In this document: piece after piece, positions 1-22,957 of the stretch
How positions within the stretch are numbered: the first letter of the stretch is position 1
Layout: each line of letters starts with the position of its first letter
Assembly: GCA_964019415.1 (NCBI GenBank)
Contig: OZ025870.1
Coordinates: forward strand, 1,223,501 to 1,287,500
Direction of reading: 5' to 3'
DNA from: Ianthella basta
Taxonomy: Eukaryota; Porifera; Demospongiae; Verongiida; Ianthellidae
Length of the DNA: 64,000 nucleotides
Notes under the pieces: generated by a model
Told to the model about the DNA's origin: nothing
Databases searched by the model: none
Seen by the model: only the letters and a program-made list of their open reading frames with translations
Position numbers and translations under genes: made by a program

Positions 1-2179
1 GCAAGGAGATTTATGAAATGCTGCGACCTGGTGTTATTCTGTATCGACATGTCGGAAACACGACTGCATGGCAGTGTACTTCGTACCATTCAAGAGCTCG
101 AGCCAAACTGGAATCATACCATCTTTGTCCTGATGTTCGCACACGCGCTGCCTGGTCTCGTGCGCCACTGCAACAATCCTCGATTTCCCAAAGGCCAGTA
201 CTTCAATATGAAATTGGCTGAATGGACTAGAGAGTTAAAGGCTATTCTTCAGCATATTGGAGTGGAACAGGAGGTGGTTGCTAAAACTAATGTTTGCCCA
301 ACTACTGATAAAGCTGGAGACCTTCTCCCAAATGGAGAACCGTGGCTCCCCCCACTGTCTTTGACCGTTATGGGACTACTCTCACCTGAGAAGAAGGCCT
401 CCTTTCTGGAGGAACATGCCTCAATAATGGCTACTGCCACTGTTACAGAACAGCTGCCAACACTATCACCTACTGCTTCTACACTTGCAGAGCTCATGGC
501 GACAATGCATGTGGGCACAATGATGAAGGTTCGGTCAAGTAGTGAGAGAGGTCTGCAGGCTTCTGCTGCTACACCTGTTCTTTCAGAACATCAATTGCGT
601 TCCATCAGAGCTGCTCTGTCAAAGCTGAGGAAGGATTGCCCTGTGTTTGGCATCTTGGTGATAGGTAGAACTGGCGTTGGTAAGTCCACCCTCATCAACA
701 ACCTCCTTGGAAAGGAGGTAGCAAGAGTGGGTCACACACTGCAGTCAGAGACGCCAGATGTGGACCAACATGAAGTTACGGTGGAAGGAGTGCAAGTCGT
801 TGTGTATGACACACCGGGCCTAGGTGATGTGAAGGGCGAGGAAGAGGAGCGGCGGCATCTGAAGGGCATGGAGAAAGCCCTAGCACAGAAGAAGATTCAT
901 CTGGTTGTGTATTGCCTTCAGATGAACAATACCATAATGACAAGCAGTATAGCCGGTGCCATCCGCAAGTACCACCAGATCGGTGTGGACTGGCAGAGGA
1001 GTGTCATTGCACTCACATTTGCTGATGCTCTCTATGTGCCTGAGAGGGAACAGGCCCTTCCCAACTTTAGAATGAGTCATTTCTTTGAAGAGAGATTGGC
1101 CTACTGGCGGAGTGAATTGGAAAAGGAGCTGGTTGATATAGTTGGCGTGAAGTCTGTAGCGGTTGCGGAGCAGAGTGATCCAGTGAGTATAGGTGTAGTT
1201 GAGCAGTCGAGGAACTGTTCCTGCCTTCAGAAGTTGATCTGCTGTCAAAGAGGCCAAACGAGGGAGATTGAGCTTGATGCTATTGTTGCAGAGTCAGATG
1301 TGATGAACATTTATCCAACTTCTCTACTACCATCAGATGACCTCCCAAATGGTAAGCCATGGTATGTCCCTCTCTGGTTGCGCATTGTGGAGATCCTGTC
1401 ACCCGCAGCAGTAGTTCGGTTACTGGACATCCACAGGAACAACATCTCTGATGAGCAAGCACCGCCTCCAAGCAAGCATTTCAAAGTACAACTGCAACTC
1501 ACCAGGGAAGACAAAAATCGTGTAGCAAATGCCATTGCTGTCACTGTAGAATCAACTGGAATGGACAGCAGCGAGGTACTTTCTCTTTCAGAATCATGTA
1601 TTGGGGATTTACTCAAGTTATTTGCTCCGGAGCAAGCAGGCCAAAGTGGAAGTGAGCCTGAGCAGGCAACATCACCACAGAATCAAACACAGTCTGTCAA
1701 AGAGTCCATCTTGTCACAGAATGTGTATGGTGAGTGTGAGAGCAAGAAGAGTGGGATAAATAGAGTGGGAGCTGAAAGAAACTTTGATAAACATAGTGCA
1801 TGCAGGTGTTAGATATGGTCATGATTGGTAGCTATCATTCTTCTGAAGTCGTGATGTAGTCATGAATGTGATTGTCTCTGCCTTCCCCACAGAACATCAG
1901 TACCATCTCGTGCTCTTCAGAAAAAACGTGAGCAAGAAGGCTGCAGGCAAGGGGAGGGCACTTCTGGAAGTGCTGTTGTGTGATGCAGCCGAGGTAGAAA
2001 AGTGCTTTGTGGGCAACCCCCTGAATGAGGAGGAGGCTGTGCAAACTGGTCTTGTCAAATGGATGGGAGGCAATGTAGGCCGCCAACCTCCCACCTGGGA
2101 GGTTCTTCTTGAAGCTATGGACGGTGCTGAAATAGACAAACAACATGTCCAAAGCCTATCAAAGGACCTCGGCCTCTAA
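1..2179 (+). CDS. GTPase copy A: pseudo-G + AIG1/GIMAP-like G domain + Death-like domain (5' partial)
   Basis: The reading frame is open from base 1, so the gene starts outside the window. Exons are 1-1729 and 1893-2179 (donor gtgagt at 1730, acceptor cag ending at 1892, phase 1), giving 671 visible residues. The first part is the end of a G-like domain (FCIDMS, then FAHAL where the other copies have TFADAL). A second, canonical G domain follows: P-loop GRTGVGKST near base 665 and G3 motif DTPGLGD near base 810, with ALTFADAL as the likely G4 region. A Cys-rich insert (CLQKLICC) precedes the conserved PNGKPWYVPLWL block. The second exon is about 95 residues and has the Trp and Leu pattern of a Death domain (LVKWMGG, PPTWEVLLEAM). 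Copy E is the closest relative. The role as an immune or cell-death GTPase is inferred from domains only. Confidence 0.82.
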
Positions 2180-2462
2180 CAGTTCTTGACACATTGCTAG
2201 CTACGTTTAACTTGGTTTTATTTCTTTAAAATTTTACTTCAATATTTTGTAGCAGCATATTTTAGCCACATAGCTAGCTAGCTGTCACATATCATGTTGA
2301 ATTATAGTCTTTATTTAGCTCTAGTTCACATGACACGTCATGTACAGGGTATGTGCGTGCATTACTTGTATGTGCATGTGCAGTTGCTTTATTCTACGTG
2401 GCTTGTGTATTGATCCATATTGCATTGCACCTAAGCCCATGACCTGTATTTGATCATGATTG

Positions 2463-2866
2463 ATTGAATCCAAAATGGAAGTGGGACCCGTCCACACATG
2501 CACCAACACAAGTTGCGTTTGCTCGCAATGAGTTCAACAGTACGTCTGTCCTTCCTCACCTGTCTCCTTCTGTCGGCCCACTTGGTCTTGTGCAAGCAGT
2601 TTACCCTGAACATATCACAGTGAGGGCGAGGAGCTGAGCTATGGCTGTGAGACTAGGACAGGTCTGGTGCATGTATATATTAGCGACTAGTTGATTGTGC
2701 ACTTTCCTTCAGGCGAAGTGACAGCTCCTTCATCTACTTATGCTAAGAGAATTAAAGAATTAACCACGACCAGCTAACAGTCTCGCGTGCTTTGTAGGTG
2801 TTGTGGTCGATTCTAGAGTGTGTATATGCTTACTTCACACTTCCAACCATACATCCCATCAATCAT
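2463..2866 (+). pseudogene. NUP210 5' fragment 1 (exon 1 and part of intron 1)
   Basis: The signal-peptide exon of NUP210 recurs at 2528-2619 (begins MSSTVRLSFL, ends KQFTLN), with about 60 bases of conserved 5' flank before it. One G is lost at the donor relative to the intact gene (tcacagtgagg against ccacaggtgagg). Matching intron 1 sequence continues to about 2860 and then stops abruptly in the interior of GTPase copy B. No NUP210 exon 2 follows, so it cannot make NUP210. The spacer at 2180-2462 matches the DNA after GTPase copy E and holds no gene that I can see. Confidence 0.75.
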
Positions 2867-2868
2867 GA

Positions 2869-4393
2869 TCCATCAGAGCAGCTTTGTCAAAGCTATGGAA
2901 TTAGGCCTGCCCCGTATTTGGCATCTTGGTGATTGGCAGAACATGTAGAGGTGTTGGTAAGTCCACCCTCATATCAACAACCTCCTTGGAAAGGAGGTAG
3001 CAAGCGTGGGCCACACACTGCAGTCAGAGACACCATTGCTAATTCTGTGGAAGGAGTGGCAATCATCGTGTACGACACACCAGGACTAAGTGATGTGAAA
3101 GACAGCAGAGACGGCAGCACTGCATCCATATGAAGATTAGTGGAAGGATTACCAATTGTTGTGTACGACACACCAGGGCTAGGTGATATAAAGGGCGAAG
3201 AAGAGGAGAAGCTGCACCTGGAGACGGTAGAAGATTTCATAGCGAAGAAGAAGATTCATCTGGTTGTGTACTGCTTTCAGATGAAGGAAACCGTAATGAC
3301 AAGCAGTATAGTCGGAGCCTTACGCAAGTACCACAAGGTTGGCGTGGACTGGGAGCATAGTGTCATTGCACTCACGTTTGCTGATGCTCTCTACATGCCT
3401 AAGAGTAAACAGGGACATCCTGACCTTAACATGAGTCAATACTTCAATGAGAGATTGACCAACTTGCAGAGACAACTGAGAAAGGAACTGGTTATTGTTG
3501 ATGTGAAGTCTGATGTGGTTGAGAGCCTGAAGATTTGTCCGACTTCTCTACTGCCAACAGATCAGCTCCCAATCGATGGTATACCCCACTCTGGTTGCGC
3601 ATTGTAGAGATACTGTCACCTGCGGCAACCGTTCGGTTCCTGGAAATGCACAGAAACAACATCTGTACTGAGCAAGCACCCGTTTCGAGGAAGCGTGTCA
3701 AATTTCAAATGCAGCTCAGCTGGGAAGACAAAAATCAGTTTGCTGAAAACATTGCTGTCACAATAAGAGCAGCTGGAATGGACAGCAGTGTGGTCCGCGC
3801 TCTTTCAGAATCACCTGCAGGTTTTGGGGAATTACTCAATTTACTTACCCTGGAACAAACAGGCCAAAGTGGAAGTGAGGCATCTTCACCACAGATCAGG
3901 GTGGCAAAGAGTCCATCTTCCTGCAGAATGTATATGTTCAATGCGAGAGCACGGAAAGTGTAATAGCTACATGCAGTGGAAGTTGAAACAAATGTGCCAA
4001 TTATGCTGTAGAAGTTTATGGGATGGGGATGGACTTTAGATATGTGTAGTAACATTCTTTGAATATGTGATATGGTCATGAATGTGAAGAATCTCTGCTT
4101 TCTCCACAGAACGTCAAGGCCATCTCAAGCTCCTCAGAAGACATGTGAGCAGAAAGGCTGCAGGCAAGGGGAGGGCAGTTCTGGAAGGGGTGGAACTTGA
4201 CACACCCACAATAAAAGCATGTTTCAAGGACAACCCCATGGATGAGGAGGGAGCCGTTCAGGAAGGGTTGACCAGGTGGATAGAAGGCGAAGGCAGCCAA
4301 CCTCCCACCTGGGAAATACTTTTCGAAGTTATGGATTTTGCCAAAATTGCACAGCAACATGTCCAAAGTCTCATGGAGGACCTCAGCCTCTAA
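2869..4393 (+). pseudogene. GTPase copy B: broken GTPase-Death pseudogene
   Basis: Homology to copies A and E starts in mid-exon at the segment leading into the P-loop; the N-terminal half is absent. The P-loop carries a 6-base insertion and is followed by a 2-base insertion that shifts the frame. The G3 segment is present twice (near 3075 and 3165), with a stop between. A deletion near 3570 shifts frame at the PNGKPWYVPLWL block. The donor of the penultimate exon is destroyed (tatatgttc where the others have tatggtragt). The final Death-like exon (about 4111-4393) has an intact acceptor and an open frame. Several independent lesions make this a confident pseudogene, although the Death exon could still be used as a donor module. 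Confidence 0.85.
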
Positions 4394-5119
4394 CAATTCC
4401 TGACACATAGCTACATAGTACGTTTTAACTATTAGTTTGCAATTGTTCTTTGATTTTCATTTTTGTGCTTAGCTAGCTAGTTTGCCACATGTCATTTATT
4501 TATTATCATGGTTGAATTATAGTCTTTATTTAGTTTCTAGGAAACAAGCATTGCACACAAATTGTGCATATTCCTTACAAGTATATATATACCCGTATAA
4601 TTATATAGTAACTGCTGCATAATTATTATGGTTTGGATAATATCGCGCAAGTGCCCCGGGGCCCTTACTTACGTAAGTGAATCCAAAATGGAAGTGGAAC
4701 CCGTCTGCAACGCACGTCTGCTCGTGATGGGCTCCAGAGTGTCTTTGCCGTTCTTCGTGTGTCTCGTAAGCAGTTCACCCACATAGCGTACCACAGGTGG
4801 GGGAGGACAGCTATGGCTGTGAGACTAGGCCAGGTCAGGTGTGTTTTAGCTGCTAGATGAATTGATTGTGCACTTTCCTTGAGGCGAGGTCATAGCTCCT
4901 TCATCTACTTATGCTAAGTGAATTAAGGAATTAATCACGACCAGCTAACAGTCTCCCTTGCTTTGTAGGTGTTGTGGCTGATTCTAGAGTGCGTATGTTT
5001 ACTTCACTCTTCCACCTCCAGGTGTTGTTACCTTATGTCCCTGAACAATCTGGAGTGAAGACCAACTTTACATTAAAGTCACAAAATGGATGCTTTCAAT
5101 GGTACAGTGTCACATGCAC

Positions 5120-5120
5120 C

Positions 5121-5200
<80 letters not shown>

Positions 5201-5212
5201 CACACACACACT
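5120..5212. repeat. CA microsatellite
   Basis: About 90 bases of CA dinucleotide with one TG interruption. It sits at the point where NUP210 exon 3 is missing from this copy. Confidence 0.95.
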
Positions 5213-6598
5213 CCCCTCCCCTCCCCTCACACACAGCTACTGGTACTCAGTTGAGATGTGATGTGTTTGTGGACACCATTCACAAGATAGAGATCACCAC
5301 GACCACCAGAGAACTGCTCCTGGAGGAGGCACCAGAGATGTTTGATGTCAGAGCTTTTGATGAAGAAGGTACGCACACCACACAATACTGTACAATTCAC
5401 TGCCCCCTATCCCCATGGGGTGGTCTTGTTTGACTTTCAGTGCCTTCTAAAGCACACGTACTTTCATGACTTGCTTTCCTTGAGGAGACATTGTGTGCAG
5501 TTGTAGCTACTCTTCATCTTTCCAATTGTTTTGCAAAGTGGTTGCTATTACAGTCATGCGACTCATGCTATCCCACCTTGAACTCACTTTTGGCACTGTT
5601 ACTTACCACTTGTGAATGGTTTAAGTTCCCTTGTGATGTACCAAGTTAGGTCAAAGTCCAAGATAAGTTGTGACTCTAATGGTATTCATGACAGCAGCCA
5701 CTTCGCATAACTTTGCTCAATTAACAGGATTATGTTTTTGTCATGTACATACTCTGGATATGCATATGAGGTAGCCAGTGACGTGAAGTCTCTGTAGACT
5801 TCCTGAGGCTCGCCTCGCCATGCTCAATACATGGTTATCATAGTAATGTGTCAGATGTACCCCGACCTGCTGTGTTTCCTATTCCGGGCAAAATATTCAG
5901 CACTCTACGAAGTCTTCTGTTTGAGGCCTATTGTTTGAGTGAACTCTGTCCAAGGACACTACAGCCAGGAACGGAAACCAGATGAGATACTGACGTATGG
6001 AAGTGGGAATATGTTTTTGCATACTAGTCCCTACTTCACTTTAGCCCCTGCATATTAATGAGGCATTAGCCAAAGCCTGTCCGTCGCATTATGTGTTCCA
6101 TTCTGTGATTGTTACATGCGCTCTGTGTAGTTAAAGTATAGCACATATCTAGCCTGTGTTACAGTACACTACTTGTCCTGTGATATATAATGGCATCTAT
6201 ACTTTGTATGTGCTGTGTGTTGTGAGTTGATTGTTGCTCCTGCCGGCAATGTCCATACAACGCACACCTGTAGCATGTTCAGCCATATCTGTTTATATGC
6301 TGTATGTGTTGTGTGTGTGCGTAGGTTTGTCCAGTTTGCTGACTCTGGTTATGAGGCAGATCCTGAGATTGACGGAATTGAGCAACAAGCAAGTATGTGA
6401 TATTAGCACATTGCCACCCACTTCACACTGTACAGTACATCAGTTTGTAAGCTAGTTACAGCACACACACAGTGTCACCCACACACGGTGTACTGTGATG
6501 ACCTTGTAGTAATGTATTTGTTCTGTGGCACCTCTCCAGTGCCCAAAACCTTTGGGACATTTTGAGCATGCCCAATTAAGTGTTCTGATTTGAGTGGT

Positions 6599-6746
6599 GT
6601 CTTTATTTCAGAGGTAGTTTTGTACACATCACTATGTAGCTGGGACAGTAGGCAATGTTCTCATTAGAGAGATGTCCTTATTTCAGATGTAGTTTTGCAC
6701 ACATCTCTATGTAGCTGGGACAGTAGGCACTGTCCTCATTAGAGAC
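6599..6746. repeat. Two tandem units of about 74 bases
   Basis: Units 6599-6672 and 6673-6746 both start with TGTCYTTATTTCAG and contain GTAGCTGGGACAGTAGGCA. A single unit occurs in the matching intron of the complete NUP210 gene (about 25665-25740), so the tandem copy arose in this duplicate or was lost there. Confidence 0.8.
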
Positions 6747-7974
6747 GTCTGTCCTTTGTAAGCATGCTCCAGTGTGTTTAAGATGTGGCTCATTGCATGG
6801 AGATGAGTCCAGTCTCTGCTGCTTATGCATGGTTGTTGTCCTTGTCTAGGGTCTCCATGGCGACTCAGTGTTGGTCCAGGCTATCAACACTGGTAGAGTT
6901 GTTGTCAATGTGAAGTTGCTGAATGAGGCGTGGCAGGGCGTGACAAGGCGTGTCCCCAGAGAGTGTGCGACTGATTGTGAAGGAGAACCTAATGTTAAAG
7001 CCATACCTGCCGATCTACATCATTCCACTGAGTTACATTGACTACACATTGGAGAAGAGGAAACAGGGAAGGGTGGAAGGTGAAGGGGAAGGGGTGGGAA
7101 GAGAGTATATATAGTGGGAAGAGTATCTTGTCTACGTACTTACAGTCAATAAGCACTCGTACACACACAGTAAGTAGCAGGGATTCACACAAGTACTTGC
7201 TGGACAAACAGCTTACCGTTTCATTGTACATTTGTGCAAATGACGTTTGCTGTGCTGTTATTATGCTTGCATCTGGAGGAGAATCTGCTCTGCAGATGAC
7301 GAGTGCTCTTGTTAACAGGTATCATCTTCTTACAAGTACACTACAGTTATTGCTGAAAAGGATAGGAAACTCGATCAACCACATTAGCGGAGGTTGTTTC
7401 TCCCATCGCTGGCTCTTTTAGTGGAATGATAGTCTGGATGATTTAATTCACCAACGTAGTCACTTCAGTACCGGATACAGCCTGTGACAGTTGAAACACT
7501 GCATTAAATTCAAAAGGTAACTTTGTTGGTGTGACAGATCGGTGATTGTACATTGATTAGGAGCACGGAGATACCGAAACATTACAGTAAACTAATTTGC
7601 TTGAAAGAAATTACAGAGCTGCAAGGGAGATGAGACAAAGCTACTCTGTGGATTGCTAACTCACTTGGAGTGTGTGTGTTAACTGAGGCATGTCCGAAAG
7701 GGTACGTGTTGCTAACTCTGGTGCAGTAATGGCTTCAATCGTCATCACCTTGCTGGTTCCTACCATAATCGGTGCGTACACTAGAAGGGCCTCTCTTCGT
7801 AAATCACTTTTTCATTCATGTAATTGGACGGCTACCTTACCAGTGGCCAAGATATGACATGTTTTACAAAAGTAAATGCAGGCACCTCCCTTAGGTGAAG
7901 CACTGACTACTCTGCAGTAGCAATGGCATGTGCATCTAGCTGACTCATGCGTGCAAACAGCATGACACATGCAT

Positions 7975-8145
7975 GCTGGAAGTGTAATAGCAAGGTACTT
8001 ATCAACATGAAACACACATTAAGTCCTTGCATGCTCAGCTGCAAGTTACATAGTGCAGCTGGAAGTGTAATAGCAAGGTGCTGATCAACACAACTTGCAG
8101 GAAACACACATTAAATCCTTGCACAATTGCAAGTTACATAGTGCA
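7975..8145. repeat. Two tandem units of 83-88 bases
   Basis: Both units begin GCTGGAAGTGTAATAGCAAG and end AAGTTACATAGTGCA. Unit boundaries are 7975-8057 and 8058-8145. There is no coding potential. Confidence 0.85.
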
Positions 8146-8390
8146 GCAGCAGTGTATGTAGTGGTAGACGTGCTACTCCTATAGCTAGTGGATGTGCAGT
8201 TGTGATTGTGGTAGTGAGCCACTGTACACTCATAGCTAGATGCGTACCATAGTGCATCCAGTAAAACTTGTAGGAGATGGTCACTGTAGCCACCTCTCTA
8301 AAACAACTAGCCTCCCTGGACCCCCCCCCCCCCTCCAAGTAGCATTAGCATAGCACTAATACATTGCAGTCCATCTCTGTAATACAGCCA

Positions 8391-8434
8391 GCTCTTAGTG
8401 GGCCACAGGTGGCTGTATTGGACAGGTTTCACTG
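8391..8434. repeat. Dispersed repeat end (shared with 51712-51752)
   Basis: The stretch with GGGCCACAGGTGGCTGT and ACAGGTTTCACTG is the approximate reverse complement of 51712-51752. A shorter related end (GCAGGTTCCACTGTA) occurs near 25755. It is probably the end of a miniature inverted-repeat element. Confidence 0.55.
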
Positions 8435-9017: not shown

Positions 9018-10826
9018 ATGGCTGTTGGAGGCGACGCGTTTCAAGATTGTCAGATGAACCGGTGGCTGGGAAAGGTTTGGAACGAAACTCGCTTTGAGAT
9101 TGTGTTGATTGGAGATCGTGGATCGTTAGGAAGTCCCTTCTTGAGCAACGTACTGGGCGCGGACCTTGACCGTCGAAGTCGGACATGCTGCGATAAAGCA
9201 CCTCGGCGGTTTGTTGCAGACGGAGTGCGTGGTATTGCTTGGCTCGTACCTGCGCTGTCAGATGCTGCAGGGTACAAGGATGAGGAGTACTTCAGACGTG
9301 ACGTTATGGAGAGCGCTGACCTGGTAATCTATTGTGTCGACATGTCGGACACACGGCTGCGCGGCGGTGTGCTGCGAACCCTACAAGAGCTGAAGCCAGA
9401 CTGGAGTCGAACTGTCATTGTCCTGACGTTCGCAGACGCCCTGCCAGGTCTCGTGCGTCACCGGGATAGTCCTGAGTTTCCCAGAGGCGAGTACTTCAAC
9501 GCCAAATTGGCTGAATGGACTGAAGAATTGAAGGCAATACTTTTGCGTATTGGAATGGGACAAGAGATGATTGCTAAGGTAAAGTTTCACCCCTGTACCA
9601 ATGAACCTGGAGATCTTCTACCAAATGGAGAGCTGTGGCTTGCACCACTGTCTCTGGCTATTATGGAAATACTATCACCTGAGAAGAAGGCCGCTTTTTT
9701 GGAGGAACATCCAATGCCACTGCATGCTGTCACTACAATTGCCAAACAACCAGCGACACAATCTCCTGCCGTTGCTGTTGTTGCTGAGCTTCCAGCAACA
9801 TTGCCTTTGGGCGAAGCCATCCTGGTTCGGTCAAGTAATGATAGCAGTCTGCAGGCTTCTCCTGTTATATCTGTGCTTTCAGAAGATCAGTCACAGTCCA
9901 TCAGAGCTGCTTTATCTAAGCTGAGGAAGGATTGCCCTGTTTTTGGCATCTTGGTGATAGGTAGAACTGGTGTTGGCAAGTCAACCCTGATCAACAATCT
10001 CCTCGGGAAGGAGGTAGCAAGTGTGGGCCATACACTGCATTCGGAGACACCAGAGGTGAACCCACATGAGGTTACGGTGGATGGAGTGCCAATTGTCGTA
10101 TACGACTCACCGGGACTAGGTGACGTGAAGGGTGAGGAAGAGGAGAAGAAGCACCTGGACATCATGAAGGCTCTCCTATCAAGGAAGAAGATTCATCTGG
10201 TTGTGTATTGCTTTCAGATGAACCAGGCCACGATGAGAAGCAGTATAGTCGGTGCCTTACGCAAGTACCACGAGATCGGTGTGGACTGGAAACGGAGTGT
10301 CATTACACTCACATTTGCTGATGCTCTCTTTGTCCCTACAAGTAAACAGGCACTTCCTGACTTTAAGATGAGCCAGCACTTCGATGAGAGGTTGGCCTTC
10401 TGGCAGGAAGAATTGAGAAAGGAGCTGGTTGAAACAATTGGTGTGAAGTCAGATGTGTTTAAGCAGCTGAAGATTTATCCAACTTCTTTACTACCAAAGG
10501 ATGAACTACAAAATGGTAAGCCATGGTATGTCCCTCTCTGGTTGCACATTGTGGAGATCCTGTCACCCGCAGCAGCCCTTCGATTCCTGGAGATGCACAG
10601 GAACAACATCCGTGACAGGGAAGCACCACCTCTGAGTAAACGTGCTAAGGTGGAAGTGAGCCTTGTTAAGGAAGAAAGGAGTCGGTTGGCTGTTACACTT
10701 GCTGTGACCATAGAAGAAGCTGGGCTGGATAGCCGTGAGGGCTTTGGTGATCTTCTCACAGCCGCTTTAGAATCAGGAGTTGGGACAGTGCACAACTTGC
10801 TGAAGGAAGATACAGCCATGACTTAG
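9018..10826 (+). CDS. GTPase copy C: pseudo-G + AIG1/GIMAP-like G domain, no death-fold module
   Basis: A single-exon frame. I chose the ATG at 9018 because the protein then begins like copies D and E (a short leader, then FQxxQMxxWLGxxW); the frame is open back to 8637. This gives 602 residues. Residues about 15-270 form the degenerate G-like domain: IGDRGSLGSP stands where a P-loop would be, and TFADAL is kept. The second G domain has GRTGVGKST (about residue 315) and DSPGLGD (about 363), then ITLTFADAL. The C-terminus ends soon after a short helix-rich segment and no Death exon is visible downstream. GTP binding by the second domain is well supported by motifs; the biological role is unknown. 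Confidence 0.88.
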   Translation: MAVGGDAFQDCQMNRWLGKVWNETRFEIVLIGDRGSLGSPFLSNVLGADLDRRSRTCCDKAPRRFVADGVRGIAWLVPALSDAAGYKDEEYFRRDVMESADLVIYCVDMSDTRLRGGVLRTLQELKPDWSRTVIVLTFADALPGLVRHRDSPEFPRGEYFNAKLAEWTEELKAILLRIGMGQEMIAKVKFHPCTNEPGDLLPNGELWLAPLSLAIMEILSPEKKAAFLEEHPMPLHAVTTIAKQPATQSPAVAVVAELPATLPLGEAILVRSSNDSSLQASPVISVLSEDQSQSIRAALSKLRKDCPVFGILVIGRTGVGKSTLINNLLGKEVASVGHTLHSETPEVNPHEVTVDGVPIVVYDSPGLGDVKGEEEEKKHLDIMKALLSRKKIHLVVYCFQMNQATMRSSIVGALRKYHEIGVDWKRSVITLTFADALFVPTSKQALPDFKMSQHFDERLAFWQEELRKELVETIGVKSDVFKQLKIYPTSLLPKDELQNGKPWYVPLWLHIVEILSPAAALRFLEMHRNNIRDREAPPLSKRAKVEVSLVKEERSRLAVTLAVTIEEAGLDSREGFGDLLTAALESGVGTVHNLLKEDTAMT

Positions 10827-12106: not shown

Positions 12107-12154
12107 CATGAGACAGCCACCACATGAGACAGCCACCACATGAGACAGCACACC
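12107..12154. repeat. 16-base tandem repeat, about 2.8 copies
   Basis: The unit CATGAGACAGCCACCA is repeated at 12107 and 12123, with a third, imperfect copy from 12139. Confidence 0.85.
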
Positions 12155-12170
12155 CACAGGTAAGATAGTA

Positions 12171-12752
12171 CCGTATTCGCTCTAAAAATTCGTCATTCTA
12201 ATTTTCGTCAGGGAAAAAAAATATGCTCAAGTGTACTCTAATCGTGACGAATTTCCTGTCTCTCTAATTTCCGCAATTGGCCTCTAATTTTCGTCATGAA
12301 CAGGAAGCGTTCTAAATATTCGTCGGAAATGCCTGCAATATGGCTGCGACGGCCAAGGAACAAAGCCTAGGAGCAAAGCCAACAGCACTCGCTGTTGTCT
12401 TTGTCCTTTTGGCATTGTTCTGTTCGTCTATAAGCCTTCTCGACGCTGTGTACGTCGTTCATTTTCCTTCTGGCGCGACAATGGAGTTCAGTGATCACGA
12501 ATCGTCTCCACATTCTTCTCGTTCGGACGGTAGCCTCGCACTGCTGTTCGCCCGGTCAACGTGTAAGTGGCCATTTCAGCAAGAAATGCCCATACGGAAT
12601 AGCTCTCCAATGTTTCGTCTTCGCTCTAATGTTTCGTCCGAAAACTCTAAATATTCGTCACCTTCGACGGTCTTCTCCATTCCAGCTCTAATTGCCTCAA
12701 AAGACGAAATTTTCGCTGCACTAGGGGTGACGAATTTTTAGAGAGGATACGG
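12171..12752. mobile_element. TA-flanked terminal-inverted-repeat element, about 580 bp
   Basis: The ends are inverted repeats of about 25 bases (CCGTATTCGCTCTAAAAATT at the left; the right end GAATTTTTAGAGAGGATACGG is its near reverse complement). They are flanked by TA on both sides, as in Tc1/mariner-type insertions. The interior repeats the end motif CTCTAAnnnTTCGTC at least six times in both orientations. There is no transposase, so it is non-autonomous unless the small ORF has an unknown role. Confidence 0.82.
12340..12741 (+). CDS. 133-aa ORF inside the TA-flanked element, N-terminal hydrophobic segment
   Basis: The ATG at 12340 opens a frame that ends six bases before the right inverted repeat finishes its core. 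Residues about 16-42 are hydrophobic (VVFVLLALFCSS), like a signal or transmembrane segment. The rest is Ser-rich and is partly translated from the repeated end motif. I recognise no family. The fit of the ORF inside the element may be chance, so confidence that it is a real gene is low. Confidence 0.25.
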   Translation: MAATAKEQSLGAKPTALAVVFVLLALFCSSISLLDAVYVVHFPSGATMEFSDHESSPHSSRSDGSLALLFARSTCKWPFQQEMPIRNSSPMFRLRSNVSSENSKYSSPSTVFSIPALIASKDEIFAALGVTNF

Positions 12753-12754
12753 TA

Positions 12755-13651
<897 letters not shown>

Positions 13652-15979
13652 ATGGCGGCCGGAAGTGGTCTGGGACGATCACGAACCGTCTTCCGGAGCG
13701 CTCATCTTTCTGCCCTTGATCTGTTGGGACGGAGACGTCTAAGCCGCGCGCGCGCGATGGCAGTGGCTCTTCCTAGTGAGATATTTCAGGAGTTTCAAAT
13801 GAAAAACTGGCTAGGGAAGATATGGGAGGAACATGACCTCCACATTGTTGCGATTGGAGAACGAAAGTCGCTAAGTGACCCTTTATGGAGCTTACACGGC
13901 AATCTCGAGGGTTGGGCTAGACCTGGCACGCTAGAACAAAACTGCAGCGCCTCAGTGCATCATTATGAGGGTTACGCAGACGGAGTGATGCTCCGTGTAT
14001 TGCGTGTACCCGCACTATCTGATGCCACCGGATACAAGGATGAAAGTTACTTTCGTCTGGCGGCACGTTATGATGTGGCGAAGGCCGATCTGGTAGTCTA
14101 CTGCGTCGACATGTCAGCCACACGGCTGCGTGGCAGTGTGCTTCGTACCTTTCAAGAAGTGAAGCCGGAATGGAATCGAACCGTCATTGCTTTGACGTTC
14201 GCAGACGCCCTGCCAGCTCTCGTGCGTCATCGGGACAATCCTGCCTTTTCCAAATGCGACTATTTCAACGACAAATTGGCTGAATGGACTAGAGAGTTAA
14301 GGGCAATGCTTCAGCGTATCGGAATGGAAGAAAAGGTGGTTGATAAGATAAGGTTTTACCCCGTTGGTGATGAACTTAAACACCTCCCAAATGGAGAACC
14401 GTGGCTCCCCCCACTGTCTCTGGCTATTATGGAAATACTATCTCCTGAGAAAAAGGCCGCCTTTTTGAAGGACCATGCCGCACAGTTGCCTACTGTCACT
14501 GCAGCTGCAATACAGCCATCAACGTTATCACAAACCATTTCTACAGCTGCAGAGCTCATGCCGACAATGCATGTGAGTACAAGGACTGAATCTCAGTCAA
14601 GCAGGATGAGCAACCTACAGGCTTCTTCTGTTTCATCTACTCTCTCAGAAGATCAATCACGATCCGTCAAAGCTGCTTTATCTAAGCTGAGGAAGGACTG
14701 CCCCATATTTGGCATCTTGGTGATTGGTAGAACTGGTGTTGGTAAGTCCACCCTCATCAACAACCTCCTAGGGAAGGAGGTAGCAAGCGTGGGCCACACA
14801 CTGCAGTCAGAGACACCAGCAGTGTACCCACATGATCATGAGGATTCGGTAGAAGGAGTGCAGATCGTTGTGTACGACACACCAGGGCTAGGTGACGTGA
14901 AAGGTGAGGAAGATGAGAAGATGCACCTGGAGATTATAAGGGATCACTTAGCAAAGAAGAAGATTCATCTGGTCGTGTACTGCTTTCAGTTGAATGAGAT
15001 GATTATGTCAAGCAGTCTGATCGGCGCCATCAACAAATACCACAAGATCGGTGTGGACTGGGAACGGAGTGTCATTGCACTCACATTTGCTGATGCCCTC
15101 TATGTGACTAAGTGGGAACAGGAAGTGGAAAACTTTAATATAAGTCAAGAGGAAGACTTTAATATAAGTCAATACTTTGATAAGAGAGTGGACTCTATCC
15201 AGAAAGATTTGGAATTTGGTATGAAGACTGATGTGCATCTAAAAATTTGCCCAACTTCTCTACATCCGAAGGATAAGCTCCCAAATGGTGAGCCATGGTA
15301 TGTCCCTTTCTGGTTGCACATTGTGGAGATCCTGTCGCCTGCAGCAACTGTTCGGTTCCTGGACATCCACAGGAACAACATCTGCGATGACCAAGCACCA
15401 CTTCTGAGCAAGAATGTCAAAGTGGAAGTGAAGCTTAGTGAAGAAGAAAGGTATAGGTTCTGTGTTAACATTGCTGCCATCATAGAAGAAGCTGGGATGG
15501 ACAGCAGTGAGGTAATGCATGCGCTAGCTGGGGTGAGCAGCAGTGAGGTCAAACGTGTGCCTTTCGTTAGGGATATCCTCAATTTGTTCGCCTTAGAACA
15601 AACAGATCAAAGTGGAAGCGAGGCCCATTCAGATCGTCAAACTATCCTGGATTGCTTTGAGTGTTTTGGAGACCGTTTTGTGAAGGATGTCCAGTCAAGA
15701 GACAACCCGGCCTTCACCAGCAAGCTATATCGACAGAAGGTCATCCCGGAGAAGTTGAAGAACCAGATAGCAGTGGCCCCCGATGGCGCTACTGCCAATG
15801 AACACTTGTTTGCCTTCCTCTGCCAGCAGGCGACTTGTGAGTCCTTGTCCAAGTTGGTTGCAGCCATGATTGAAGCTGAGGGCTATCCTGCCATGAACGA
15901 GTTGGGGAGAGAGATGCAGGCAAAACTGGGACTGCAAACACCTGCACCTGGTGCTATGAGATACTGCACAGTAATATAG
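13652..15979 (+). CDS. GTPase copy D: pseudo-G + G domain + CARD-like domain + CaaX-type tail
   Basis: A single-exon frame of 775 residues from the ATG at 13652 (context aaaATGG). An internal ATG at 13757 corresponds to the start used in copies C and E. The first 35 residues are Arg-rich with no acidic residue before Asp23. The degenerate G-like domain follows (IGERKSLSD in place of a P-loop). The active-type G domain has GRTGVGKST (about residue 359), DTPGLGD and ALTFADAL. Residues about 667-765 differ from all other copies. They have six-helix-like spacing and a CARD-type pattern (RFVKDV, VIPEKLKNQI, ANEHLFAFL, LSKLVAAMIEAEGYPAMNEL). The last residues are CTVI, which fits a prenylation CaaX box. 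The CARD and CaaX assignments are by eye. Confidence 0.85.
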   Translation: MAAGSGLGRSRTVFRSAHLSALDLLGRRRLSRARAMAVALPSEIFQEFQMKNWLGKIWEEHDLHIVAIGERKSLSDPLWSLHGNLEGWARPGTLEQNCSASVHHYEGYADGVMLRVLRVPALSDATGYKDESYFRLAARYDVAKADLVVYCVDMSATRLRGSVLRTFQEVKPEWNRTVIALTFADALPALVRHRDNPAFSKCDYFNDKLAEWTRELRAMLQRIGMEEKVVDKIRFYPVGDELKHLPNGEPWLPPLSLAIMEILSPEKKAAFLKDHAAQLPTVTAAAIQPSTLSQTISTAAELMPTMHVSTRTESQSSRMSNLQASSVSSTLSEDQSRSVKAALSKLRKDCPIFGILVIGRTGVGKSTLINNLLGKEVASVGHTLQSETPAVYPHDHEDSVEGVQIVVYDTPGLGDVKGEEDEKMHLEIIRDHLAKKKIHLVVYCFQLNEMIMSSSLIGAINKYHKIGVDWERSVIALTFADALYVTKWEQEVENFNISQEEDFNISQYFDKRVDSIQKDLEFGMKTDVHLKICPTSLHPKDKLPNGEPWYVPFWLHIVEILSPAATVRFLDIHRNNICDDQAPLLSKNVKVEVKLSEEERYRFCVNIAAIIEEAGMDSSEVMHALAGVSSSEVKRVPFVRDILNLFALEQTDQSGSEAHSDRQTILDCFECFGDRFVKDVQSRDNPAFTSKLYRQKVIPEKLKNQIAVAPDGATANEHLFAFLCQQATCESLSKLVAAMIEAEGYPAMNELGREMQAKLGLQTPAPGAMRYCTVI

Positions 15980-16182
15980 CTAGCTAGCTAGCTAGTTACA
16001 CTTTGAACTAGCTAGGAACCTGCTTTGTGGCTATTTGTTTGGACATTTGTGCTCACCTAACTCTGTACAGCTGTATATTATAGCTAACACTTTTGCATAG
16101 TTATACGTTTTGCACAGGAAAACCGCTTGTACACTATCTCATTCCCTCCATTTTCATTACCATTTTTGCAATTCCGATTTAC

Positions 16183-17307
16183 TGAATTCCAAATGGAAGT
16201 GGGACCCTTCCATTTTCCTGTCCGCGCGTTGCTCGCAATGAGTTCAACTGTACCTCTGTCCTTCCTCGCCTGTCTCCTCCTGTCGATCCACTTGGTCTCA
16301 TGCAATTGCAAACAGATCACCCTCAACGTACCACAGGTGAGGGAGGAGGAGAGCTATGGCTGTGAGACTTGGACGGGTCTGGAGTGGTGTAGCTGCTAGT
16401 TCGAGTGCTAGTTGATGTCATATGCATCAGGTGACAGCTCCTTCATCTGCTGTTAAGCGAATTAAGGGACTCTCTGCAACTAGCAGTTTCTCCTGCGCTG
16501 TAGGCGATAAAGTACTTCCTAGGGTCTGTATACCCAAGCCACATTCTTCCATTCTTGCCTACCTATGGGGAGCTGCCAATTTGCATTTAATGAGAATGCC
16601 GGAGGATGGACCCATCGATGTAGCTACATGGGCAGGTCTAGGATTTTCCAAAAGGGTTCGACTTGATAAAACAACCGACCACTAAGGCATCCAGTAGGAT
16701 CCCCCCCCCCCCCTAGGAAAATTTCTAATACATATACAGCTAGCCTCTAAGACAGTGACTCTGACCAAGTCTACACGGTGGACCTAGTTTCATTCAGTTG
16801 ATGTATACATTGTTAGTCAAGTACCTGTCGAATACCTCAGTGTCACATGGGTATATCCAGGTATAGCTTGGAAATTTAGTTGGAGGTCTTCCAGTTTTAT
16901 GCTTACAACTGACGTATAATGACGTCATTCTCCGTAGGCAAAATGGCTGCCTAACACTAAGTAAATATTTTAGAAGCTGAAATCATGGGAAACGATGTGA
17001 AGGTGAAAGGCGACTGTCTTCTGTAGTGCATCAGAAAAGAGAAAAGTCAGTAGCAGCACTAATTCATCCTCCAGTACTGCTTTTCAGTACCTTTGAGTTC
17101 CTCAGTTGCAATTGTTGTAGCTATGCCGGAGATTCAGTTTGATGTGCTTGTGAGATGGAGGTGTAGTAGAAATGCGTGTGTCTTGGCACATCTGCCTATG
17201 TCATCTACGTACCTCTTGCAGGTGTTGTTACCTATGTCCCTGAGCAATCTGAAGTGAAGACCAACTTTACATTAAAGTCACAGAATGGATGCTTCCACTG
17301 GTACAAC

Positions 17308-17308
<1 letters not shown>
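16183..17308 (+). pseudogene. NUP210 5' fragment 3 (exons 1 and 2)
   Basis: Exon 1 (16238-16336) is intact with a good signal peptide (MSSTVPLSFLACLLLSIHL) and a normal gtgagg donor. The upstream ATG at 16193 is in frame with it here. Exon 2 (about 17221-17299) keeps its splice sites but has lost one base early on (TTACCTATG for TTACCTTATG), shifting frame. Exon 3 onward is absent; the sequence continues into intron 2-like CA repeat. The intron is longer than in the complete gene, including a poly-C run near 16700. Confidence 0.8.
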
Positions 17309-17385
<77 letters not shown>

Positions 17386-17412
17386 CACGCATACACACAC
17401 GCATGCACACAC
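17309..17412. repeat. CA microsatellite
   Basis: About 100 bases of CA dinucleotide directly after the donor of NUP210-like exon 2. Confidence 0.95.
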
Positions 17413-17790
17413 ATTGCAGTCTGTCCATCATCCCAACTCCTTCAAATACTTCACTGTTGTTCACTGTCACACAACACATCTGTATTGTACATGCTGTGAG
17501 TGTGTTTGGTGTTACATGTGTGTGTGTTGCTCTAGTCATGTTGTGGTTCTACAAATCCCACTGCCTGCACCCTTCTACTTCCAGGTGATATAGCTAGTTG
17601 ATAAACGGCACACCAGTCGACCCACCTTGTCCAGAAAGGTGATGATGACAATGCCCCCAAAGGACACAGCAGGACACACAGGTTAGCTGACAGTCATGTC
17701 TGTGTGATTGCAACTGTACATGTGTGGACCTCACTGTATGTATGTGATTGTCCTTTGTTTGCTTTATGCTTTATGCTGTGTTGCTTAAAC

Positions 17791-17822
17791 GCACACACAC
17801 ACGCACACACGCACGCACACAT

Positions 17823-17914
<92 letters not shown>
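17791..17914. repeat. CA microsatellite
   Basis: About 120 bases of CA dinucleotide, with CACG steps at the start. Confidence 0.95.
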
Positions 17915-17917
<3 letters not shown>

Positions 17918-17997
17918 GCTATTACACCTACAGCTGTTAGTTGCGTATTTATAGTTTATCATTATCCATCACATCTCACTCTTCATTTCTGTGTGTA

Positions 17998-18115
17998 GAG
18001 GAAGCAGTAATGCTTCAGTTGAAATCTTTTATGGAGATCGTTTTGTGAATGAGATCCCGTCAAGAGCAGGCACCACCTCCAAGCAAGTGTGTCAGATTGC
18101 AAGTGCCACTTGTCC
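17998..18115 (+). pseudogene. Chimeric scrap of GTPase-family sequence
   Basis: After a possible acceptor (tgtgtag), the frame reads GDRFVNEIPSR, close to GDRFVKDVQSR at the start of the CARD-like domain of copy D. It then passes directly into GCACCACCTCCAAGCAAG, which belongs to the block after the second G domain in copy E. The two pieces are in the reverse of their normal order. It encodes nothing complete. Confidence 0.55.
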
Positions 18116-19765
18116 ACTTATGTGCACACACCACAACAGTTTGAACTGCTTTAGAGTTCCCTTCAGAGTACAATGAACCATGTACATTACTGCTTGCTGT
18201 CAGTCCTGTTATCTGGATTGCAGTTGTATTCAGTCAATTGCAAGTCACAATTCAAGAATGATGTACTAAGTATTGTACTCACCAAATTGGAATTGGGACC
18301 TGCAGTTCTCCCATGAACGTACATGTGTACATGCAGAGCATGTGTCTGCTCGTAATGGACAACACTTTTATATACTAAGTTTGTTTTAAGTTTGTTTTGT
18401 AACTGCTAGACCCAGGAACTGTAACAGTGGTGACTGGACTTGGCCTACTGTGTGATATATTGCTATAGTTCATGAAAGGCTGCTGGAACAGTTTTGGGAG
18501 GAATGTCGCGTGGGAAGGGAATAGGCCTAGGGCTATATCTTAGGGTGGTGCCATTAAGCGGGGAAATGCATGTATGTGCACATGTGAAAATAGTTCTCCT
18601 TGTCTTGTGTTATTGTATAATTTTATATAAATACTACTTTTCTCATTTAATTTGTCAGATGACTTGGTGGGGAACTCCAAGTATAGAACTCATCGTCACA
18701 CTCATCTTGGCTAACTATGTAGCCAGCCCATTCCTTTATTCTGCCTATTGACAATTGCATAGGTCAATCATTGCAATGCTGTTATGTACGTACCTGAGCC
18801 TGGTAAAGGTACACTAGCTATTATAACATTATAATTATAATAATTATACGTAGTCCTTAATTAATTGCAATCGATGTCACATAGTAATTATATGACATTT
18901 ATACTTGATGACTATGACTTTATAGACACGTTCAGATGGGCAGCTGTGCATGTCTATTATGCATAATTATGATGTCACACATTTACTTGTACTGTATATA
19001 TATCATGCTAGACAGATGATAATCATTGTGGGGGCGAGCCTGAGTGAGATGCAGGTGTTTAGTCCAGGCAGTCTGTAGCCTAGCCTCGCCTGGCTTAGAG
19101 ACTATCTGCCGCCTCTGGTGATCACTGCTTTAACTCATGCCAATAATCCCTGATCTGCTGCTGCGTAGCTTGTCTCTTCACAGCAGTATTGCCTGCTAGC
19201 CTCTCATGATGATAATAACCCTTCATCTGGAATATCTTTATCTGTACTGTATACAGCGAAGCATGCCGAGCCCTCTTTTGCTGTCGGCAGAGCAACTGTT
19301 CTCCTCTGTATTCACCCGTCTCAGCTCGTGGACTTCAAGCTGGGTTGGCAGAGAAGTTCTCGAAGCTGTGGGAAGAGTAGTCCAAAGTCCAAACTCCCAA
19401 AGTCATAAGGCTGGGTGTGGTAAGGGCAGCACGTCTTCAGCATTGCGTTCACATAACCTACCGTTTGAGGCTTTCTGTGGCAAAATTCAAGGTCATCATC
19501 ATCATAATTTTATTTGACTACAGGAGATGCTGCATCTGCATAGCTGCAGGTTTCCATGCAGGTCCTGATTTACCTTAATACAAGGACAAAACATGAGGGG
19601 AGGGAGGGACATGTACTATGGCTGGGGCAGAGAATAATAGGATGCAATTACTCAAGGAAAATAATGAGGTGGTCAGAAATCATTGTCAGTCAGTCAATTT
19701 TCAGTCTGTTGCAATTGGTTGCCAAGATGGATGTGAACGCTGCATAAGTAGAGCCTTATGAAAGA

Positions 19766-20135
19766 CAGAATCTTAGCTCGTGGACTTTACTTCATTTGGA
19801 AGGTCATTGTATAACTTGGCTCCAAAGTACTCAAACGAAGACCTATACCAATTAGTATGCGTGCTTTCAAATGTAGATCTTTTGCCCTGCGGGTCGAATG
19901 ATCGGCGGTGAGGATGGAGTAACGAATTTGTTACAGAAATAGTTGGGGCACGTCTGCTTAGACAGCTGCGGACTTGCAGTAGCTATCGTGCTGGTATCTC
20001 TTCTACATGAGAGAGGGGGCAGGCTCAGTTGACTGCGCATCTTCTCAGTGCTGCTTCTAGGGGGCTTGTTCAGGATTATGCGTAGAGCATAGTTCTGCAA
20101 ACGCTCCAATCTCTTGGTGAAGGTGGTGCGTGATC
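19766..20135 (-). mobile_element. 3' end of a non-LTR-type reverse-transcriptase ORF, degenerate
   Basis: On the minus strand, 20135 to about 19870 reads RLERLQNYALRIILNKPP and then LSLPPLSCRRD, the usual C-terminal segment of RT ORFs in animal retrotransposons. A frameshift follows, and the next frame reads SFEYFGAKLYNDLPNEVKST, again typical of that C-terminus. No RT catalytic core or endonuclease lies in the window, so this is a dead 5'-truncated copy. It sits just upstream of GTPase copy E. Confidence 0.72.
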
Positions 20136-20189
20136 ATGAGCGGCGGCCATTTAAACGGTAAATCGACCCCGGGTGCCAATACAGACGCA

Positions 20190-20279
20190 CGCTGGATATA
20201 GTCTCGTACCCGACCCTGTCCGCCGGCCGCCATTTTATTCGGCCGGCGGACGGGGTCGGGTACGTGACTACGCTGGATA
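20190..20279. mobile_element. Foldback miniature element with 9-bp target duplication
   Basis: The element is 20199-20270, an almost perfect hairpin with arms of about 30 bases around CCATTTTATT. It starts TAGTCTCGTACCCGACCC and ends with the reverse complement (GGGTCGGGTACGTGACTA). It is flanked on both sides by the identical 9-mer CGCTGGATA (20190-20198, 20271-20279). The same end sequence occurs in the elements at 40656 and 43995. Confidence 0.85.
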
Positions 20280-20423
20280 TAAATCGACAAATATTAATCA
20301 CCGTACAGCTGATCAGTGTGGGGCTCGCTCAGGCTCGCACCAATAATACGTTTATTCGTACAGTGCCGCCACATTCTAGCTGTTCCAGTCTTAGCTATAG
20401 CCTCCTATTCGTGTGGGTCAGAA

Positions 20424-22957
20424 ATGGAAGGGTTTCAGATGAGCCAGTGGCTAGGCAGGTTTTGGGATTATGAGAAAGACGGTGCATTACATATTATTTT
20501 CGTTGGAGGCCGAAAATCGATAGGAGGCTCGTTCGTGAGGAGCTTAGTGGGCAAGGATCAGAAATTCCGTGCTGAAGTTCAGTACGCTGATCCCGTTCGC
20601 GTTCAACCGAGTCTAAACAACCTCTCCTCACAACTCCTTCCAACGGTCGCGATCGGGAGTATCATGAAAGATGAATTCAGTTTAGTCGTGGACAAAGTAA
20701 AGGTTATTGTACACCTCGTACCTGTACTGTCTGATGCTACTGGCTACAAGGATGAGAGCTACTTTCTGGCCGCGCGGAAATTATTGGGAGCCCACTGGAG
20801 GAAAGGTCTGGATCTGTTATTCTTCTGTATCGACATGTCAGGAACGCGACTGCGTGGCAGTGTGCTTCGTACGTTTGAAGAGCTGAAGCCAGACTGGAGT
20901 CGAACTGTCATCGTCCTGAGGTTCGCAGACGCCCTGCCAGCTCTCGTGCGTCAGCAGCATCACCGGGACAATCCTGCCTTTTCCAAAGCAAGGTATTTCG
21001 ACGAAAAATTGGGTGAATGGATTAAAGAATTAAAGGCAGTTCTTGAGCACATTAACGTGCAACAAGAAGTGGTTGCTAAGATTAACATTTGCCCCGTTGC
21101 CGATGAACCTGGAGACCTTCTACCAAATGGTGAACCGTGGCTCCCCCCACTGTCTTTGGCCATTATGGAAATACTATCACCTGAGAAGAAGGCATCCTTT
21201 TTGGAGGAACACTCCACACTATTGCCCACTGTCAATGCAGCTGCAGAACTGCCAGCAACACTATCACCTACTGGTTCTAGATCTGCAACTACAGAGCTCA
21301 GGACGACAATTAATGTGAGCACAAGGACCAAGACTCAGTCAAGTAGAAAGGGACGTCTCCGAGGTTCCTCTGTTTCACCGGTGATTTCGAATCAATTACA
21401 ATCCATCAGAGCTGCTCTGTCTAAGCTGAGGAAGGATTGCCCCGTGTTTGGCATCTTGGTGATAGGTAGAACTGGCATTGGTAAATCCACCCTCATCAAC
21501 AACCTCCTTGGGATGGAGGTAGCAAGCGTGGGCCACACACTGCAGTCGGAGACACCAGATGTGAACCAACATGAGGTTACTGTGGAAGGAGTGCAAGTCG
21601 TTGTGTATGATACACCAGGCCTAGGTGACGTGAAGGGTGAGGAAGAGGAGCAGCGGCATCTAAAGGACATAGAGGATGTCCTGGCACAGAAGAAGATTCA
21701 TCTGGTTGTGTGCTGCTTTCAGATGAACGACACCATGATGACAAGCAGTATAGTCGGTGCCATCCACAAGTACCACCAGATTGGCGTGGAGTGGAAGCAG
21801 AGTGTGATTGCACTCACATTTGCTGATGCTCTCTATGTGCCTAAGAGGATACAGGCACTTCCCAACTTTAGAATGAGTCATTTCTTTGAAGAGAGATTGG
21901 CCTACTGGCAGAGTGAATTGGAAAAGGAGCTGGTTGATATAGTTGGTGTGAAGTCGGTAGTGGTTGCGGAACATACTGATCCAGTGAGTTTAGATGCAGT
22001 TGAGCAATCAAGGATCTCTTCCTGCCTTCAGAAGTTAATCTGCTGTCGGAGAGGACAGACAAGTGAAGTTGGGCATGATGCTATTGGCGTGGAGTCAGAT
22101 GTGATGAACATTTGTCCAACTTCTCTACTACCAACAGATGAGCTACCAAATGGTAATCCATGGTATGTCCCTCTCTGGTTGCGCATTGTGGAGATCCTGT
22201 CACCCGCAGCAACTGTTCGGTTCCTGGACATCCACAGGAACAACATCTCTGACGAGCAAGCACCACCTCCAAGCAAGCATGTCAAATTACAACTGCAACT
22301 CACCAAGGAAGACAAAAATCGTGCGTGTCACAAATGTGTCATACGTGCTCTTTCAAAATCAGGTATTGGGGATTTACTCAAGCTATTTGCTCCAGAGCAA
22401 ACTGGCCAAAGTGGAAGTGAGGCAGAGCAGTCAACTTCACCACAGAATCAGAGACAGTCTGCCAAAGTGTCCGTCTTGTCACAGAATGTGTATGGTAAGT
22501 GTGAGAGCAAGGAGAGTGTGATACATAGCTACAGTGGGAGCTGAAGGAAACTTTGATAAACATAGTACATGCAGGAGTTAAATATGATCATGTGTGGTAG
22601 CTATAAAATTGTTCTGAAGGCGTAATATGTCCATAAACGTGACTGTCTCTGCCCTTCTCCGCAGAACGTTTGGACCATCTCATGCTCTTCAGAAAACATG
22701 TGAGCAGCAAAGCTGCAGGCAAGGGGAGGGCACTTCTGGAAGTGCTGTTGTGTGATGCAGCAAAGGTAGAAAAGTGCTTTGGGGACAACCCCTTGAATGA
22801 GGAGGAAGCTGTGCAAGCTGGCCTGGTCGAATGGATGGGAGGCAATGTAGGCCATCAACCTCCCACCTGGGAGGTTCTTCTTGAAGCCATGGACAATGCC
22901 GAAATTGCTAAACAGCATGTCCAAAGCCTGTCCAAGGACCTCGGCCTCAAACCTTGA
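20424..22957 (+). CDS. GTPase copy E: pseudo-G + G domain + Death-like domain
   Basis: Exons 20424-22494 and 22665-22957 (donor gtaagt, acceptor gcag, phase 1) encode 787 residues. The start ATG at 20424 gives MEGFQMSQWLGRFW, matching the starts of C and D. The N-terminal G-like domain has VGGRKSIGGS in place of a P-loop but keeps FCIDMS and ADAL. The second domain has GRTGIGKST (about residue 348), DTPGLGD and ALTFADAL, then a Cys-rich insert (SCLQKLICC) shared with copy A. The Death-like exon supplies residues about 691-787 (LVEWMGG, PPTWEVLLEAM). The stop lies 336 bases before the NUP210 start ATG. The immediate 5' flank is made of transposon remnants. Confidence 0.88.

Follow-up and report, generated by a model that had tools for sequence, protein, structure and literature searches.

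A tandem array of five copies (A to E) of one GTPase gene, all on the plus strand, occupies positions 1-22957 of the window, by which we mean the whole 64,000-nucleotide stretch of Ianthella basta contig OZ025870.1 (assembly GCA_964019415.1, forward strand, 1,223,501-1,287,500) that was analysed; coordinates are those of the window. The stop-to-stop frames comprise 603 (A), 729 (C), 786 (D) and 743 (E) codons, with A truncated by the window start, and because of this size and of the 52-72% identity between copies (tblastn) they are not chance frames. A tblastn search of the entire window with pieces of these four frames (E ≤ 1e-3) returned the four open copies and the broken copy B and no others, which together with the frames bears out the tandem array of four open and one broken copy proposed in a preliminary description of this DNA. 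No related locus was found in the genome-contig or viral-contig collections searched.

Exon 1 of copy A (1-1729, 5' end cut) contains the 3' part of a degenerate first G domain (pseudo-G) up to about 429, a linker, a canonical G domain at about 616-1446 and a second linker ending SILSQNVYG; exon 2 (1893-2179) encodes a Death-fold domain. Copy E is built alike, exon 1 (20439-22494) carrying the pseudo-G domain, the canonical G domain (about 21417-22247) and the linker VLSQNVYG, and exon 2 (22665-22957) the Death-fold domain. The introns, 1730-1892 in A (163 nucleotides) and 22495-22664 in E (170 nucleotides), were placed from the sequence alone; the splice sites claimed previously are present in both as GT..AG (A 1729/1893, E 22494/22665), and both introns are phase 1 and lie at an identical place. 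Copy C (9018-10826) consists of a pseudo-G domain (9018-9722), a canonical G domain (about 9912-10610) and a short end. In copy D (13757-15979), a pseudo-G domain (13763-14488) and a canonical G domain (about 14678-15382) are followed within the same exon by a CARD-fold domain (15635-15934), which was located by tail profile and structure prediction, and by the C-terminal residues CTVI (15965-15976). The start codon of D was picked by comparison with the relative P0001 and that of E as in P0036. Copy B (2839-4393) is broken into five pieces over different frames, has its canonical G domain in pieces and shows TT at the splice donor where A and E have GT. Its Death exon frame (4088-4393) is still open, and tblastn of the copy pieces against the window gave no match to a first G domain. 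By these sequence features copy B is a pseudogene.

Selection on the array

Ratios of non-synonymous to synonymous substitution (dN/dS) were calculated between copies by the Nei-Gojobori method. For six copy pairs each, they amounted to 0.39-0.62 in the first and 0.35-0.48 in the second G domain, while the Death exons gave 0.25 for A versus E and 0.36-0.47 against B. Linker and tail together yielded 0.26-0.51 in the five measurable pairs, of which three approach saturation; D/E gave no measurable value. Judged by these ratios, the parts of the gene, the pseudo-G domain included, are under purifying selection. The presence of pseudogene B could suggest that the array as a whole consists of recent duplicates decaying without function, but values of 0.25-0.62 in pseudo-G, second G domain and Death exon, and the splice sites retained by A and E, make this very improbable. 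The expanding family assumed earlier is supported as a tandem family under coding constraint. Synonymous divergence was clearly lower in the second than in the first G domain in five of six copy pairs (A/E, 0.21 versus 0.51), with nearly equal values for A/D (0.42 and 0.46). This difference points to gene conversion with its focus in the working G domain.

A degenerate and an intact G domain

In copies C, D and E, the first G domain, of AIG1/Toc type, is degenerate and the one behind it intact; of A's first domain, no more than the 3' part lies within the window. The second G domains of A, C, D and E passed the gathering score of the AIG1 family (PF04548, 27) with 46.6-53.0 bits, and the best stretch of every Pfam G-domain profile, the only stretch listed, fell in the second domain and never in the first. 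A profile-profile comparison of 53 first with 54 second domains nevertheless gave E=4.2e-38 over 214 columns, and in tblastn the second domain of A aligned to the first domain of D with E=5e-20. The profile of the window's first domains also matched PDB entry 3def ('T7I23.11 protein', which we take to be Toc33) with E=2.4e-4 over positions 15-233. On these alignments, the first domain is homologous to the second and is a G domain despite its degeneration.

In the aligned rows, which include P0021 (window C) and P0036 (window E), with P0024 being 591/603 identical to A, the second domain carries GRTGxGKST in 54/54, DTPGLGD in 50/54 and the G4-like LTFADA in 52/54. In the open copies its G1 P-loop, GRTG[V/I]GKS, is of the GIMAP type GxxxxGKS. 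The first domain lacks GxxxxGK[ST] in all 49 of the 49 relatives covering the site; these derive from 53 relatives of at least 580 amino acids, of which P0011, P0012, P0032 and P0055 do not cover it. Its place is taken by IG-x-R-x-S or near variants such as IGDRKSL and VGGRKSI (P0042 without R, P0037 with C for S), a replacement three residues shorter than the P-loop by eye, although the profile alignment places no gap there. DTPG has become PALSDATGY-like, and the G4-like LTFADA is kept in 42/54 rows. The pseudo-G/G core described previously from the window is therefore found in every relative that covers the first P-loop site, and by its conservation across the alignment the first domain is a pseudo-GTPase retained in the family. 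The IG-x-R-x-S motif itself (13844-13873 in D) is near-constant in the 49 relatives and may serve a new function, perhaps at a dimer face.

A more distant group of two-G relatives, P0060-P0071, retains both P-loops in 12/12 members. The first domain of the window family finds its best match in the first domain of this group (E=1.5e-44; second domain of the group, 1.5e-37). Since both P-loops occur there and the best match is first to first, two working G domains were probably ancestral. The N-terminal G domain would then have lost its nucleotide-binding motifs later and yet been retained, probably with a new conserved motif replacing the P-loop.

For both G domains, Toc34-type GTPases are the closest relatives of solved structure, and they share with the family LPNGxxW at the end of the domain; for the second domain, the Toc34-type match (E=1.6e-10) is followed by GBP1 (E=7e-4) and GIMAP4 (E=8e-4). 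Toc34-type proteins have a single G domain and act in plant chloroplast import. Copy D scored 55.1 with the Toc34 profile TIGR00991 against a cut-off of 421.6, and death-fold tails are a feature of the window family not found in the Toc34 type. IRG and GBP proteins are immune-linked GTPases; in all four open copies their Pfam profiles matched weakly around the P-loop and under the cut-offs (IIGP 13.6-17.5 versus 24, GBP 12.8-19.1 versus 21.1). NB-ARC, matching on the shared P-loop, scored no higher than 11.8 bits in C and 12.0 in D versus 23.5, and NACHT was not among the Pfam matches listed. Membership in the GBP, IRG or NLR families was rejected on these scores. The comparison with GIMAP, IRG and GBP proteins drawn in the preliminary description stands in so far as the second G domain is AIG1, but Toc34-type structures are nearer than GIMAP4 or GBP1 and the IRG and GBP profiles remain under their cut-offs.

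Several other relatives have a different architecture. Part of P0072-P0092 are single-G AIG1 relatives with long hydrophobic C-termini rich in Gly and Ala, such as GAAGATVAGAVAAGAM, which are possible membrane-inserting tails. P0089, P0090, P0094 and P0095 are relatives of about 1,060 amino acids with similar ends. In P0089, the only one scanned, the AIG1 GTPase is continuous with a stretch that matches COR-A weakly (E=0.0093, below the cut-off), perhaps an AIG1 and ROCO-like fusion.

C-terminal tails and their history

Death exons end copies A, B and E, a CARD-fold domain followed by CTVI ends D, and C has neither. The tail of D needs no separate exon, its open frame continuing from the GTPase without an intron. 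CARD and Death profiles built from the family itself were run at inclusion threshold against all six-frame open reading frames of at least 25 codons in the whole window and found one CARD (D), three Death domains (A, B, E) and no further hit, in agreement with the differing C-termini reported earlier (Death in A and E, CARD with a CaaX-type end in D, none in C). CTVI corresponds to a CaaX-type prenylation motif and is a putative one here. The same search showed no tail exon behind C, although a very different tail would escape it. A tail not detectable in C alongside tailed copies, together with the pseudo-G domain conserved at all 49 sites covered, would also fit a family made up mostly of negative regulators that, in the manner of CARD-only or PYD-only proteins, sequester Death or CARD partners and hold signalling back. 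We regard this as improbable, as G1, G3 and the G4-like motif are all preserved in the second G domain, which one would expect of a working switch and not of a passive decoy.

Structure prediction and comparison with the PDB covered the Death exon of E and the tail of D, and predicted for both the death folds that had been proposed from the sequence. The exon of E is modelled as six helices (predicted local distance difference test score 88) with FADD and RAIDD as best structural matches; the Death exon of A shows 80% identity with this exon and that of B 58%. The tail of D is modelled as a six-helix bundle with a broken first helix, which is the CARD fold, and its best match is the APAF-1 CARD. 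A Death fold in A and E and a CARD fold in D are thus supported by the models. Several results weigh against these assignments. With Foldseek, no match to either tail reached E 0.001; the structural Z of the Death domain, 12.0, lies below the value of about 13 advised by the comparison tool for helical bundles; the window's own Death exons gave no Pfam Death match at E ≤ 10; and the tail of D had no Pfam CARD match and a sole, unrelated PDB sequence match (E=1.8). Moreover, ankyrin and p84 are among the Death fold matches, and Death domains also have non-death roles. Among relatives, Pfam Death was found in 10/81 at E ≤ 1 (best 0.0024), with CRADD at E=0.096, and Pfam CARD was missing among the families listed at E ≤ 10 for all of the 10 CARD-fold tails scanned out of 41. 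Because neither Pfam nor PDB sequence matches include a CARD, we call the tail of D CARD-fold and not Pfam CARD. A chance helical bundle was rejected for D on structural comparison; for A and E we consider it unlikely, given that fold and sequence both point to Death.

Two further observations concern the ends of relatives. P0006, P0016, P0055 and P0188, four of the 41 frames with a CARD, have the C-terminal residues ETAV, TSTV or TSTL, similar to PDZ ligands, and many others end in ALGL. The Death-exon frames of P0110, P0117, P0130 and P0141 seem to read back via a short intron into a separate small linker exon (ILSQKVYGE-like), which could mean that other genes use linker and Death exon as a cassette.

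Whether the tails are exchangeable, as the preliminary description had it, was examined on a tree of the two-G core calculated by a quick method with midpoint root for 53 of 59 rows (P0022, P0045, P0053, P0057, P0058 and P0059 being too short), in which the labels of P0036, P0021, P0034, P0035 and P0037 were set by hand. The Death-linker label, derived from the linker ILSQNV, with the Death exon itself seen for A, B and E only, requires one change on this tree, on a branch with a support of only 63. The in-frame CARD label requires six changes, at least four of them forced by starred branches, and a single clade for the 18 in-frame CARD rows was rejected by the approximately unbiased (AU) test (p=0.00018), which bears on CARDs in the GTPase's own open frame only. 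Some relatives are core/tail mosaics. P0002 equals P0028 in 50/50 residues at 201-250 and in 20/50 at 651-700, where it is 48/50 identical to P0053; P0012 is 100/100 identical to P0011 at residues 401-500 and 80/100 at 501-600, its tail grouping with P0045, P0181 and P0193 (support 83); P0016 is another mosaic. P0002 and P0016 lie on contigs of 3,678 and 5,408 bases and could be misassemblies, while P0012 lies on one of 829,247 bases. Real tail transfer is indicated by some of the mosaics only (P0002, P0016 and P0012). Copies D and A have LFAxEQxxQSGSE in common right up to the point where their tails diverge; therefore, the swap point is identical.

A search over about 54-171 amino acids found 20 CARD-only frames of 84-135 amino acids, and the contigs of the CARD-only frame P0182 and the GTPase frame P0026 have the same printed length, 7110. 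Because CARD-only frames exist, the 'TAG' and Cys-rich ends of relatives may be splice donors; the reading of such relatives as tail-less from their open frames was abandoned, since a CARD exon could sit behind an intron. Loss of the CARD, or an intron before its exon, would explain much of the CARD scatter as readily as gain, which counts against frequent swapping. For the Death tail one origin suffices, and the CARD may be ancestral. A simpler history would start from an ancestor with a CARD, followed by losses, a single replacement by Death and gene conversion of local extent. Of the proposed exchangeability, the lack of a single CARD clade (AU test) and some mosaics speak for it, but a single Death origin and a possibly ancestral CARD speak against it.

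The Cys-rich ends, close to CC[Y/C/N]LCC, occur in 11/59 two-G relatives (within P0038-P0056, by regular expression) and may be palmitoylated anchors or mark the end of an exon. Membranes are the site of action of Toc and of some GIMAP GTPases. Such ends and the CaaX-like end of D could mean membranes, and with Toc34-type GTPases as nearest solved relatives and ankyrin Death domains among the fold matches, the death-fold tails might be scaffolds for membrane traffic or organelle positioning, unrelated to cell death or defence. We consider this explanation unlikely, as two death-fold classes on one core, tandem expansion, a pseudogene and mosaics fit defence better, and AIG1 proteins respond to immune or microbial stimuli in other invertebrates according to the available excerpts of two reports (PMC7053062, PMC11229196).

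A candidate death-fold switch and its relatives

The reading we favour, with somewhat better than even confidence, is that of a lineage-expanded animal GTPase family of AIG1/Toc type, in which an oligomerising GTP switch gathers Death or CARD tails to nucleate adaptors or caspases. We take the host to be an animal on account of the neighbouring NUP210 and tryptophanyl-tRNA synthetase genes, the introns and the death folds. The anatomy, the predicted folds and the constraint form the established part of the reading, from which we infer the switch function. GTPases on the septin/Toc/AIG1 side dimerise via the G face, and among GIMAPs one member can drive hydrolysis by another. The intact second G domain would act as GTP switch, and the fused pseudo-G domain, its body kept without P-loop, could sit at the dimer face as a built-in cis partner or clamp. 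Oligomerisation would be driven by the loading of GTP at a membrane or upon an infection or stress cue, and would bring the C-terminal Death or CARD domains together and nucleate the assembly of adaptors or caspases. Different tails on one sensor core would route a single trigger to different lines; D would probably be membrane-held through prenylation of CTVI, and the tail-less C is a possible silent subunit limiting or damping assembly. The domain layout suggests an infection or stress alarm.

The similarity in logic to NLRs noted earlier is a fair analogy. NLRs and APAF-1 likewise combine a nucleotide switch with a CARD or Death adaptor, and the tail of D has the APAF-1 CARD as best match; however, the window family is an AIG1/septin-side GTPase and not a signal transduction ATPase with numerous domains (STAND), and its adaptor is C-terminal. 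Neither LRR nor WD repeat families were among the Pfam matches of the window copies. More tentatively, and with less than even confidence, the family may represent a non-STAND counterpart of NLRs, a large receptor-switch family of an invertebrate, early-branching or otherwise, in which a permanently fused pseudoGTPase:GTPase gates C-terminal CARD or Death tails swapped by exon replacement and gene conversion, independent of the N-terminal fusions of molluscs and amphioxus.

These fusions are known to us from excerpts of the cited papers. In Biomphalaria glabrata, AIG1 genes are mostly in tandem and largely expanded, some encode two AIG1 domains, and some of the proteins carry N-terminal death domains (DD-CARD or DD-Fas) (PMC7053062). 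Tandem arrays, some double AIG1 domains, death domains and expansion are thus common to both, but the death fold is N-terminal in the snail and C-terminal in the window family, and the pseudo-G/G core with a lost first P-loop is a feature of the latter. The stretch after G3, KIHLVVYCFQM, is unlike the GIMAP conserved box quoted in the same paper, as judged by eye with no dedicated test. In amphioxus, CARD+AIG1(+HINT) GIMAPs, stated to be unique to amphioxus among animals, and multiple-AIG1 proteins were reported (PMC12373286); the CARD is N-terminal and HINT C-terminal there, and the Death alternative is a feature of the window family. Death fold plus AIG1 was therefore already known, and what differs on the evidence of these excerpts is the C-terminal placement, the CARD/Death alternative and the pseudo-G/G pair. 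The previous statement that no family with this exact order is described needs to be narrowed: death fold and AIG1 are combined in print, although N-terminally in the excerpts (PMC7053062, PMC12373286), and this domain order was undescribed at the level of titles and abstract openings, while full texts might hold it.

If the proposed switch is real, animals have linked AIG1-type GTPases to death-fold signalling repeatedly, with the death fold at either end, and in one lineage a pseudoGTPase:GTPase pair arose in cis whose adaptor (CARD, Death or none) varies among array neighbours. The array would represent a compact natural experiment, with one core and different outputs. In the sponge Dysidea avara, two GIMAP-family GTP-binding proteins were found in the differential response to foreign symbionts (PMC11229196), and such genes were reported, in the excerpts available, as not found in the sponge Amphimedon (PMC7053062, PMC11229196). 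If the host is a sponge, the window family bears on this statement of absence.

Other features of the window were noted. Between C and D lies an open frame (12316-12741) with a hydrophobic N-terminal stretch and no Pfam match at E ≤ 0.01. Downstream of the array, 37621-39812 and 45193-47309 hold two blocks of 3' exons resembling NUP210, a nuclear pore membrane protein, which are near-identical by eye and represent a segmental duplication about 7.5 kb apart; the first block matched Pfam NUP210_Ig (E=7.8e-14) and NUP210 in the PDB (E=6.4e-4). A tryptophanyl-tRNA synthetase exon was identified at 58757-59206 (PDB, E=2.4e-10).

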